A stretch of DNA of 33,090 bases from an uncultured Prevotellaceae bacterium. GTDB taxonomy: Bacteria; Bacteroidota; Bacteroidia; Bacteroidales; Bacteroidaceae. The position numbers were made by a program, and so were the translations under genes. The notes beneath the pieces are model-generated. The model searched no databases, was not told where the DNA came from, and saw only the letters and a program-made list of their open reading frames with translations. The DNA is taken from assembly GCA_945833925.1 (NCBI GenBank), contig CAMAFX010000023.1:1-33090 (forward strand), given 5' to 3'. Below are positions 4,797 to 24,207 of the stretch, piece after piece (positions within the stretch are counted from its first letter, which is position 1; each line of letters starts with the position of its first letter).

Positions 4797-4804
4797 TATC
4801 TTTG
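4797..4804 (+). promoter_or_regulatory. -7 box almost abutting the ruvB start codon
   Basis: TATCTTTG ends at 4804 and the ruvB ATG begins at 4811, leaving six bases. If the box works, the mRNA is leaderless or nearly so. The same arrangement occurs at ispG. Confidence 0.5.
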
Positions 4805-4810
4805 TGCACT

Positions 4811-5848
4811 ATGGAAGGTAATTTCGACATAAGACAACAGGGAGCGCAGCGCGAAAAGGACTTCGAAAACGCTCTGCGCCCATTGCACTTTGAGGATTTC
4901 TCGGGTCAGCAGAAGGTTGTGGAGAACCTCAGGATATTCGTTGAGGCGGCAAAGTACAGAGGCGAGCCGCTCGACCACACTCTGCTGCACGGACCTCCGG
5001 GACTCGGCAAGACAACGTTGAGCAACATCATAGCCAACGAACTGGGCGTCGGTTTCAAACTGACCAGCGGTCCGGTGCTCGACAAACCGGGTGACCTGGC
5101 AGGTATACTGACCTCGCTCGAACCCAATGATGTACTCTTCATAGACGAGATTCACCGCCTGTCGCCTGTGGTAGAGGAGTATCTCTACTCGGCAATGGAG
5201 GACTATCGCATAGACATCATGATAGACAAGGGTCCGTCGGCGAGAAGCATACAGATTGACCTGGCTCCGTTCACGCTGGTGGGTGCCACTACGCGCAGCG
5301 GACTGCTGACGGCACCGTTGCGTGCTCGTTTCGGTATCAACATGCACCTCGAGTATTACGACTCGCAGACACTGCGCAGCATCATACAGCGTTCGGCTGG
5401 CATACTTGGACTGCCCATCGATGCCATGGCGGCTGGCGAGATAGCGGGTCGCAGCCGTGGCACGCCACGTATTGCCAACGCCCTCCTGCGCCGTGTGCGC
5501 GACTTTGCCCAGGTGAAGGGCAACGGACGCATCGACATTGCCATAGCACGCTATGCCCTCGAGGCGCTGAACATAGACAAGTACGGTCTGGACGAGATAG
5601 ACAACAAGATACTGATGACCATCATCGACAAGTTCAAGGGTGGTCCGGTGGGTATCAATACAATAGCAACCGCCATCGGTGAGGATGGCGGTACTGTGGA
5701 AGAGGTCTACGAACCATTCCTCATAAAGGAAGGATTCATCAAGCGTACTCCACGCGGACGCGAGGTGACAGAACTGGCATACAAGCACCTCGGCCGCAAG
5801 ATAAACAGCGCCGACGGTTTCGTGGGCGACCTCTTTGAAGGAATGTGA
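4811..5848 (+). CDS. ruvB: Holliday junction branch migration ATPase RuvB
   Basis: RuvB is the AAA+ motor that, with RuvA, drives branch migration of Holliday junctions during recombinational repair. The 345-residue protein is of usual length. It shows the Walker A site GPPGLGKTT (61-69), Walker [10 protein letters not shown], the [18 protein letters not shown] sensor/arginine-finger region, and a C-terminal winged-helix domain with TPRGR. ATG 4811 was chosen over the in-frame TTG at 4802 because the TTG lies inside the -7 box. ruvA and ruvC are not adjacent. The stop codon overlaps a hairpin terminator. Confidence 0.97.
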
Positions 5849-20706: not shown

Positions 20707-21144
20707 ATGAGAACTGTTCTTTTTCCTGGTTCCTTCAATCCGTTCACCAAGGGGCATGCCGACATTGTAGAGCGTGCACTCGCACTGTTCGACCGTGTGG
20801 TCGTCGCTGTTGGATATAACGAGAATAAGGCAGACCTATCAGGCATCGACGAACGACTTGATACCATCCGCAGGATATATGCCGGTGAGGCAAGGGTGGA
20901 GGTTTTGTCCTACAGTTGTCTGACGGTCGACGTAGCCCGACAGGTGGATGCTTCTGCCGTTCTGCGTGGCGTGCGCAGCTTCAAGGACTACGAGTACGAG
21001 ATGCAGATGGCAGACGTCAACCGACAGCTGACGGGACTGGAGACAGTCATCCTCTTTGCACGTCCTGAGTATGCCAGCATAAGCAGCAGTGTGGTGCGCG
21101 AACTTCAGCATTACGGTCATGATGTAACAGACTTTCTCCCATAA
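20707..21144 (+). CDS. coaD: Phosphopantetheine adenylyltransferase
   Basis: Catalyses the fourth step of CoA synthesis, joining AMP to 4'-phosphopantetheine. The 145-residue protein is slightly shorter than the usual ~160. It shows the nucleotidyltransferase signature FPGSFNPFTKGHADI (T/HxGH type), VLRGVRSFKDYEYEMQMA and the ISSSVVREL motif. It is downstream of parE and 18 bases before the S41 peptidase gene. Confidence 0.95.
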   Translation: MRTVLFPGSFNPFTKGHADIVERALALFDRVVVAVGYNENKADLSGIDERLDTIRRIYAGEARVEVLSYSCLTVDVARQVDASAVLRGVRSFKDYEYEMQMADVNRQLTGLETVILFARPEYASISSSVVRELQHYGHDVTDFLP

Positions 21145-21162
21145 ATATCTTAATACACACTA

Positions 21163-22731
21163 ATGAAGAAACTCGCTTTATTAATTCTTATAACTGTCTT
21201 TGGTTCTTTCTCGGCATCTGCACAGAAGGACATAGAGAGTGCCATCCGTAAGTTAATGATGGCAACTATAATGACAAACAACTTCTATGTTGATACTGTC
21301 AATTGCGACAAACTGGTAGAGAATGCCATCAAGGGTATGATAGGCAAGCTCGACCCTCATTCTGCCTATACCAATGCAAAGGAGACAAAGGCTTTCACCG
21401 AACCGCTGCAGGGCTCGTTTGAGGGTATCGGTGTGCAGTTCAATATGCTCGAAGACACTCTTTTCGTCATTCAGACTGTCTCAAAGGGTCCGTCAGAAAA
21501 GGTCGGCATACTGGCAGGCGACCGCATAGTAAATGTAAACGATACTGCCATTGCCGGCGTCAAGATGTCTCGTGAGGACATTATGCACAGACTGCGTGGA
21601 CCTAAGGGCACCAAGGTTAAACTCGGAATAAAGCGTTCTGGCATCAGTGACCTTGTCTACTTCAATGTTATCCGCGACAAGATTCCTGTCACCACACTCG
21701 ATGCTGCCTTTATGGTCACTCCTACCATCGGTCTCATCCGTTTCAGCAGTTTTGCGGCAACTACTCACGACGAGGTTGTAAAGGCTGTCAACGACCTGAA
21801 GGTAAAGGGGATGAAGTCGCTCATCATCGACCTGCAGCAGAACGGAGGCGGTTTCCTCAATGCAGCAGCCGAGATAGCCAGTGAATTCCTTCCCAAGGGT
21901 GACCTCGTTGTCTATACTAAGGGACGCAGCGTACCGACACAGGAATTCTGCAGTTCCGGCAATAACCTCTTTGAAGGCGACATCGTGGTCCTCATCGACG
22001 AATATTCGGCCTCTGCAGCAGAGATTCTTACAGGTGCCATTCAAGACCAGGACCGCGGACTTGTGGTCGGCAGACGAAGTTTCGGCAAGGGACTCGTACA
22101 GCGCCCCATCGACCTTCCTGATGGTTCGATGATTCGTCTCACAATCGCTCACTACTACACTCCGTCGGGACGTTGCGTGCAGAAACCTTACGAGATGGGT
22201 AACAAGGAGGCTTACAGCAAGGATGTGCTGAACCGTTTCAACAGCGGCGAACTGACCAACGTAGATTCGATGAAAGCACATATTCCAGACTCGCTAAAGT
22301 TCGAGACTCTGCGCAAGCATCGCATCGTGTATGGTGGCGGTGGCATCACTCCCGACTATTTCATCCCACTCGACACCACCATCTACACCAAGTATTATCG
22401 TGAGTTGTCTGCCAAGAGCATAGTGATTCAGGCAAACCTCCGCTATATGGACAAGAACCACAAGCGTATATCCAAGCTTTATCCGAGCTTTGACAAGTTC
22501 GAGGCTGAGTATGAGGTTCCCGACGAAGTCATCGAGAAGATATTTGCAGAAGGAGAGAAGCAGAAGGTGACGCCAAAGGACGATGCCGAGCGACAGGAGA
22601 CAATACCTCAGCTCAAGCTTACGCTGAAGGGACTCGTAGCACGCGACATCTGGGATATGTCCGAGTACTTCCAGATTATCTACAAGGATAATGAAATGGT
22701 CAAGAAGGCTGTCGAACTGCTTTCCAAGTAA
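21163..22731 (+). CDS. S41 C-terminal processing peptidase (Ctp-like)
   Basis: A periplasmic serine protease of the tail-specific protease family. The 522-residue protein has a signal peptide ending ASAQ, then a PDZ domain (about 85-160, GIGVQFNMLEDTL.. GPSEKVGILAGDRIV). In the catalytic core the Ser/Lys dyad is S284 (YSASAAE) and K309 (SFGKGLVQ). The 25-residue spacing equals that of the plant D1 processing protease. A long C-terminal extension follows. It lies between coaD and the ybeY-birA fusion with gaps of 18 and 9 bases. Confidence 0.93.
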   Translation: MKKLALLILITVFGSFSASAQKDIESAIRKLMMATIMTNNFYVDTVNCDKLVENAIKGMIGKLDPHSAYTNAKETKAFTEPLQGSFEGIGVQFNMLEDTLFVIQTVSKGPSEKVGILAGDRIVNVNDTAIAGVKMSREDIMHRLRGPKGTKVKLGIKRSGISDLVYFNVIRDKIPVTTLDAAFMVTPTIGLIRFSSFAATTHDEVVKAVNDLKVKGMKSLIIDLQQNGGGFLNAAAEIASEFLPKGDLVVYTKGRSVPTQEFCSSGNNLFEGDIVVLIDEYSASAAEILTGAIQDQDRGLVVGRRSFGKGLVQRPIDLPDGSMIRLTIAHYYTPSGRCVQKPYEMGNKEAYSKDVLNRFNSGELTNVDSMKAHIPDSLKFETLRKHRIVYGGGGITPDYFIPLDTTIYTKYYRELSAKSIVIQANLRYMDKNHKRISKLYPSFDKFEAEYEVPDEVIEKIFAEGEKQKVTPKDDAERQETIPQLKLTLKGLVARDIWDMSEYFQIIYKDNEMVKKAVELLSK

Positions 22732-22740
22732 CGCGTAGTA

Positions 22741-24027
22741 ATGGCTGTTACATATAATTCGGAGTGTATCGAACTGCCAGTTCTCAATCAGCAGGCAGTA
22801 ACAGAGTGGATAGTGCGTGTTGCTGCTACCTACCAGCGTCGTGTTGGTGATATCAATTTCATCTTTGTCAACGACGAACGTATTCTCGAGATAAACAGGG
22901 AGTTCATAGGTCACGACTACTACACCGATCATATCGGTTTTGACTATTGCGAGGGAACGATTCTGTCGGGTGACATATATATATCACTCGACACTGTTCG
23001 TACCAATGCCGATTTGTTCAAGGTGTCCTATAACAACGAGTTGCACAGGGTCATCATTCACGGAGTGCTTCATCTGTGCGGTATCGAGGATAAGGAACCC
23101 GGTCAGCGAGCTGAGATGGAACGCGCTGAGAATATTGCTTTGGCAGATATTGATTTTCTTTCTGAATCTTGCCATAAAGAGGGAGAGAGATTTGCTTCTG
23201 AACCAGCCAGGACATCAGCAGAAGAGGGAGTTTCCGAGTCGTGCTCTGCGATTAGAACTTCAATTCCTGCCGAGATTACTCATATTGCACTTGACACAGT
23301 CGATTCCACCAATAATTATCTCAAGACCAATGCCAGTCAGTTGCAGGATGATGTGACTCTTGTGACTGCCGATTTTCAGACGTCGGGACGTGGACAGCGT
23401 GGTAATTCCTGGGAGTCGGAGGCAGGCAAGAACGTCGTTTACAGTCTGCTCATCCACCCCTCTCGCATCAAGCCTTCGCAAATGTTTGTCATATCCGAGA
23501 TTTCGGCGTTGAGCATCTGCTGTGCACTCAATGATGTTGTGACGTCGATGCCTGTTGGTATAGAAACGGATTGTTTTAGCATCAAGTGGCCCAACGATAT
23601 TTACTATGGCAACCGCAAGGTGGCAGGCATTCTTATAGAAACAGACATCCTCGGCAATAAGATAGAGAATGCCGTTATTGGCGTGGGTGTCAATGTCAAC
23701 CAGCAGCAGTTCGTCAGCGATGCGCCCAACCCGGTTTCGCTGTTCCAGATTTTAGGCAGGGAGACGGAGCGTCAGTCTGTTATCGGACAGATAATGCATC
23801 GTTTCATGCAGTATTATGATTTGCTGAAATGTGGTGAACTTGAATCAATTCATCAGATGTTCATGCAGAACCTTTTCCGTAGAGATGGAGTGCACAAATA
23901 TCGTGATTCAAACGGTACGTTCGAAGCATCTGTTCAAGAAGTCGAACTGACAGGCCATCTTATCCTGCGCGACACTGAAGGAACGCTCAGACGCTACGCT
24001 TTCAAGGAGGTTGAATACTTGTTCTAA
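22741..24027 (+). CDS. ybeY-birA: Fusion of YbeY rRNA-maturation RNase with BirA-type biotin ligase
   Basis: One uninterrupted 428-codon frame encodes two enzymes. Residues 1-142 are YbeY, a zinc-dependent endoribonuclease acting in 16S rRNA maturation and ribosome quality control. It has FVNDERILEINREFIGHDYYTDHIGF and the metal motif HGVLHLCGIED (H107, H111; the usual third His is replaced by acidic residues, as in other Bacteroidetes as I recall). Residues ~143-178 are a polar linker. Residues ~180-428 are a class I biotin protein ligase without a DNA-binding domain: DSTN (188-191), SGRGQRGNSW (from 215), KWPND (282-286) and KVAGILIE (293-300). No internal ATG lies near the domain boundary, so one polypeptide is expected. 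It is the last gene of the operon, before a strong terminator. Confidence 0.9.
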   Translation: MAVTYNSECIELPVLNQQAVTEWIVRVAATYQRRVGDINFIFVNDERILEINREFIGHDYYTDHIGFDYCEGTILSGDIYISLDTVRTNADLFKVSYNNELHRVIIHGVLHLCGIEDKEPGQRAEMERAENIALADIDFLSESCHKEGERFASEPARTSAEEGVSESCSAIRTSIPAEITHIALDTVDSTNNYLKTNASQLQDDVTLVTADFQTSGRGQRGNSWESEAGKNVVYSLLIHPSRIKPSQMFVISEISALSICCALNDVVTSMPVGIETDCFSIKWPNDIYYGNRKVAGILIETDILGNKIENAVIGVGVNVNQQQFVSDAPNPVSLFQILGRETERQSVIGQIMHRFMQYYDLLKCGELESIHQMFMQNLFRRDGVHKYRDSNGTFEASVQEVELTGHLILRDTEGTLRRYAFKEVEYLF

Positions 24028-24053
24028 TCCCTCGCGCGCGTATATATATAAAT

Positions 24054-24092
24054 AAGGTGGGCTTTGACGCTTTCTCTGTCAAAGCCCACCTT
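24054..24092. terminator. Bidirectional terminator between ybeY-birA and ispG
   Basis: A perfect 15-bp stem, AAGGTGGGCTTTGAC (24054-24068) and GTCAAAGCCCACCTT (24078-24092), with a 9-base loop. It is the strongest hairpin in the window and lies between convergent genes. Confidence 0.85.
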
Positions 24093-24125
24093 GTTGTTTC
24101 GGTTCGGCACGTTGTTCACGACCTG

Positions 24126-24207
24126 CCCTCTTTCAATTGAAAGCCAAAGCATCCTACTGTTTTTGCTTTTCCCCTCTTTCAACTGAGAGCCAAAGTATCC
24201 TACTGTT
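24126..24207. repeat. 36-bp direct repeat (46-bp period) overlapping the ispG 3' end
   Basis: CCCTCTTTCAATTGAAAGCC.. (24126-24161) recurs at 24172-24207 with three differences in 36. The second copy runs through the ispG stop codon into its last codons, so the first looks like a duplicate of the gene's end. Copy 1 contains the perfect palindrome CTTTCAATTGAAAG, which is broken in copy 2. Confidence 0.8.

Follow-up and report, generated by a model that had tools for sequence, protein, structure and literature searches.

The window analysed here, a stretch of 33,090 nucleotides (contig CAMAFX010000023.1, forward strand), belongs to the draft genome of an uncultured Prevotellaceae bacterium, which comprises 2,495,276 bases in 117 contigs and is 87.24 % complete and 1.83 % contaminated. 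Translation of the window revealed a single uninterrupted frame at 22741–24027 on the forward strand, which starts with ATG, encodes 428 amino acids and carries a YbeY domain that is followed, after a flexible linker at about residues 142–178, by a monofunctional biotin protein ligase (BPL) domain. The initial annotation had described YbeY and biotin ligase as one polypeptide, with a frame open across the junction and signature motifs kept in both halves. This description held throughout, with both domains scoring above their curated cut-offs within a single frame and all of the named motifs (HGVLHLCG; GRGQRGNSW, KWPND and KVAGIL) in the translation. The features of the locus were as follows:

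20707..21144, forward strand: coaD, pantetheine-phosphate adenylyltransferase (TIGR01510, 160.2 bits against a cut-off of 103.3)
21163..22731, forward strand: S41 protease gene, ending 9 bp upstream of the fused gene (PF03572 and TIGR00225, over cut-off)
22741..23163, forward strand: YbeY domain, residues 1–141 (PF02130, TIGR00043), by family an endoribonuclease of 16S rRNA maturation
23164..23274, forward strand: linker, residues 142–178, predicted to be disordered at residues 143–168 (pLDDT <50)
23275..24027, forward strand: biotin protein ligase domain, residues 179–428, stop codon included, without a DNA-binding domain
24051..24095, forward strand: terminator-like hairpin of 19 pairs behind the fused gene, from a scan whose total of 4 sites was not above that of shuffled sequences (mean 6.7)

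The 9 bp gap after the protease stop codon and the downstream hairpin suggest that the fusion is probably the last gene of a transcript that also contains coaD. Between the hairpin and ispG, positions 24128–24202 contain a pair of direct repeats, each about 40 bases long (CTCTTTCAAyTGArAGCCAAAG...), and a 108-base query of these repeats matched only itself in the source genome.

Both YbeY and the monofunctional biotin ligase are familiar enzymes. The N-terminal half of the fused protein matched PF02130 over residues 21–134 at 78 bits (Pfam cut-off 25) and TIGR00043 at 87.2 bits (NCBIfam cut-off 45). R53, D63, H107, H111 and D117 were invariant in all 29 aligned YbeY rows, including that of the window, and R53, H107, H111 and D117 comprise the arginine and metal-site residues of the family; the third metal position is Asp in the window, as it is in each of the 29 rows. 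As the structure matches listed for the whole model were taken up by ligases, a separate model of the YbeY half was made and used as query. This model reached a pLDDT of 93.4, and its six Foldseek matches at E≤0.001 were all YbeY/UPF0054 entries. Residues 1–141 thus share with the YbeY endoribonucleases (TIGR00043/PF02130) the family cut-offs, the metal-site and Arg residues and the fold of solved structures, placing this half in the YbeY family by sequence and model, with a putative role as a 16S rRNA endoribonuclease that follows from the family. In relatives (20 + 12), YbeY is a separate protein of about 140–150 residues, whereas that of the window carries a C-terminal ligase.

The C-terminal half matched PF03099 (BPL_LplA_LipB) over residues 186–318 at 79.4 bits (cut-off 21), and the fused protein scored 145.5 bits against TIGR00121 (cut-off 83.1). 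A structure search with the predicted model also matched this half to the fold of solved ligases. Residues 179–428 therefore share both cut-offs and the fold with the group I biotin protein ligases (TIGR00121/PF03099), and this half is assigned to that group, with biotinylation as the activity predicted by family; it differs from a group I ligase in having no start of its own and in bearing an RNase on its N-terminal side. Three biotin/lipoyl carrier domain matches, on two contigs of the source genome, represent possible substrates. The group II ligase BirA, as described in PMC3199775, has an N-terminal DNA-binding module, and the protein of the window resembles it in placing a second functional module N-terminal of the ligase. 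It differs in that this module is YbeY; no helix-turn-helix or other DNA-binding domain was found, Pfam at E≤0.01 returning just YbeY and BPL_LplA_LipB. The bifunctional biotin ligase/type III pantothenate kinase (NF009862, PRK13325) likewise unites, by its name, a ligase and a housekeeping enzyme in one chain. Identity with NF009862 was rejected, as the match reached 50 bits where the cut-off is 761 and covered profile positions 110–311 of 592, the ligase part only. Ligases joined to other modules are a known kind of protein, as illustrated by NF009862 and by the DNA-binding domain of BirA (PMC3199775).

Our search of the protein database revealed a second case of the same architecture. The best match to the fused protein, P0001 (416 amino acids, encoded on a single 4386-base contig with the source label lgn), shares the domain order and is 78 % identical to the window's protein over its full length. 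The YbeY segments share 128 of 141 residues and the ligase segments 197 of 250, and the two proteins form a pair in both trees, with support of 100/100 for the ligase and 100/99 for YbeY. The linker of P0001 is shorter and strongly diverged, with 23 of 37 residues aligning and 10 identical. Conserved domains on either side of a freely changing, in-frame linker would be hard to obtain by assembly error, judging from these two sequences, and an assembly accident is unlikely given that P0001 comes from another contig and repeats the domain order with a diverged linker kept in frame.

The initial annotation had also claimed that no internal ATG offers the ligase a separate start, and this proved true of further codons: ATG, GTG, TTG and CTG are all absent in frame between codons 135 and 199, and a TTG at codon 134 falls within the YbeY domain. 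Residues 141–171 of P0001 include no Met, Val or Leu, so none of these four codons is possible there. ATT, a rare start codon, occurs in frame at codons 137, 171, 175, 179 and 182, and in an alignment with 19 standalone ligases, seven of them have their first Met in the column of Ile179. From this alignment the former ligase start position seems now to be the ATT at codon 179, which could act as a rare start. One gene might thus yield two products, with a restart at ATT (for example at codon 179) or cleavage of the linker freeing the ligase, and the join would then exist at the level of the gene only. The four ATT codons from 171 to 182, the alignment of Ile179 with standalone start positions and a linker whose predicted disorder would permit cutting are consistent with this, but ATT is rare as a start and the usual start codons are missing from the window and impossible at P0001 residues 141–171, and we regard two products as fairly unlikely. 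The linker DNA matched only itself when compared with the source genome and a set of retrieved loci, and no source for it was found there.

Following a proposal of the initial annotation, the source genome was searched for another ybeY or birA, and neither was found in the 87.24 % of the genome that is represented. The single PF02130 match lay inside the fused ORF (10 of 14 control genomes were positive with this profile), as did the single PF03099 match (14 of 14 controls positive). Since no other copy was found, the fused protein is probably the source of both activities.

The join is rare among relatives. Among 139 genomes of the same genus, the window's included, 138 had a match to the fused protein: 113 had two, nine had three, fifteen besides the window's had one and one had none. 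The window's row was the only one among the matches listed to span both halves, and the next best reached 352.6 bits over residues 171–426; a full fusion would be expected to outrank single halves in such a listing. A sample of 399 genomes of the family, which overlaps with the same-genus set, gave a match in 398, with the window's row again alone among those listed in spanning both halves and the next best at 267.6 bits over residues 181–427. Genus and family rows that reached the linker columns were not counted as fusions because they contain internal stops. The search for this domain order in related genomes, as the initial annotation had advised, yielded P0001 from the protein database and, among the listed genus and family rows, no case other than the window.

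The whole-protein database search scored the 7998 candidates that shared most words with the query, and one of the best 120 matches, P0001, carries both domains. A query with the YbeY segment (residues 1–140), in a search that admits proteins of 235–749 amino acids and is blind to YbeY proteins sharing no words with the query, gave 34 matches among 146 candidates, with P0001 the sole one to have PF03099. At least 592 stretches of genomic contigs gave at least 589 relatives, and none of the 80 that were retained matched along both halves. No relatives were present in 122 stretches of viral contigs, and none of 43 plasmid records covered 80 % of the query. The initial annotation took a YbeY–ligase fusion as not known to be described, and none was found among the titles and abstract openings listed in searches of open-licence literature.

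Other long YbeY proteins were observed among the 34 matches. Ten carry PF07670 (nucleoside recognition; P0122–P0126, P0131, P0135, P0136, P0143 and P0147) and perhaps represent another recurring YbeY join; three have RuvB domains and two have PF01467. These partner families are those of genes that neighbour ybeY in relatives, and some of the long proteins may therefore be real joins or read-throughs. Of eight that were inspected, several were judged by eye to be chance or assembly joins.

In all 12 relatives whose ybeY locus was read (L101–L104, L110, L112–L114, L116, L117, L119 and L120), the gyrB-like gene, coaD, the S41 protease gene and a separate ybeY are kept in this order, with the gyrB-like gene of L117 split over two overlapping frames. 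The initial annotation had held that separate genes at this locus in close relatives would speak against the fusion. One part of that pattern was seen, as ybeY is separate in all 12, but the ligase gene is absent from the locus. A separate ybeY at a locus without a ligase indicates a recent origin of the fusion rather than an error. The site behind ybeY seems prone to rearrangement. A ruvB frame overlaps the 3′ end of ybeY in L110, L112, L113, L114 and L116, ruvB faces ybeY in L117, and the ruvB of the window lies at 4802–5848, about 17 kb from ybeY. Two near relatives (L101 and L102; G061:C57 and G069:C145) have contigs that end within about 200 bases behind ybeY.

The ligase gene occupies a different place in relatives. 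It adjoins pyrH in seven of the nine whose ligase locus was read (L105–L109, L111, L115, L118 and L119), the two genes facing each other in L107 and L108 and sharing one direction in L109, L111, L115, L118 and L119; in L105 and L106 pyrH lies some kilobases away. A relative of yraN (UPF0102) precedes the ligase gene in six of the nine, and in L119 a single contig carries both the ligase gene and ybeY, separated by about 8 kb. The source genome's pyrH retains its other-side neighbours as in L107 and L108, and is faced by a DUF3109 gene, uracil-DNA glycosylase and phosphoglycerate mutase. No ligase remnant was found in the two stretches of this genome around pyrH and dacB (best E 3.5). Nor was yraN found in the source genome, 13 % of which is missing, by one protein query and PF02021 (8 of 14 controls positive); the gene may have disappeared as the ligase gene was relocated, or may lie in the missing part.

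With the ligase located elsewhere in relatives and non-ligase genes at the genome's own pyrH, birA has probably moved behind ybeY and then fused. In the ligase tree the nearest relative of the window/P0001 pair is G061, of the same genus (support 91/89), whereas in the YbeY tree the pair's next neighbour was not resolved and the pair does not stand beside G061. As the nearest ligase relatives are of the same genus, no foreign donor is needed. The ligase gene would have left its old place, beside pyrH in most relatives read, in an ancestor shared with the organism of P0001, and would have arrived behind ybeY at the end of the gyrB-like/coaD/S41 protease/ybeY cluster. There it would have lost its start codon and become joined in frame to ybeY through a flexible linker of about 25–37 residues. 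We infer a single fusion event before the lineages of the window and P0001, which is known here as a protein sequence, separated.

These loci also bear on whether an assembly chimera or sequencing error joined two genes. The genome is a draft of 117 contigs, and several other long YbeY-containing database proteins look like chance joins. However, the same join occurs in P0001, 78 % identical and on another contig, neither gene was found a second time, the pyrH side is without a ligase and the upstream cluster is in its usual order; we consider an artefact extremely improbable.

Against a genuine fusion protein stand the small number of known sequences, of which there are two (that of the window, in a draft genome 87 % complete, and P0001, known as a protein), the ATT at codon 179 as a possible rare start, and a YbeY tree that does not place the pair beside G061 as the ligase tree does. 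A real fusion is supported by the homologue with a diverged linker, by the separate copies not found and by the loss of the usual start codons, and we think it likely that the gene encodes a genuine two-enzyme protein, made as one chain with independent activities. One chain would be translated from the ybeY start and, we infer, stay intact with both halves active, the YbeY half acting on 16S rRNA and the ligase half biotinylating carrier proteins, each by its usual chemistry. To our knowledge, these are housekeeping enzymes without a known link. The initial annotation had proposed that ligase supply becomes stoichiometric with the RNase, coupling biotin enzymes to ribosome maturation; this would hold only for a chain that escapes both cleavage and re-initiation. 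Possible but improbable is a coupling device under selection in one small clade, probably within the Bacteroidales from the names of similar loci, in which a ligase held on YbeY near the ribosome would biotinylate carriers as they are made, or ribosome maturation would set biotinylation capacity. The fusion would presumably be mainly neutral, or a change in expression level, rather than such a device.

In summary, the fusion gene is a new architecture built from ordinary, known parts. Housekeeping enzymes are known to become fused and, with ordinary parts, the importance of this one is moderate unless coupling is shown. The fusion offers a naturally occurring case in which to ask if YbeY can bear a large partner at its C-terminus and if the dose of a biotin ligase can be tied to a ribosome factor.
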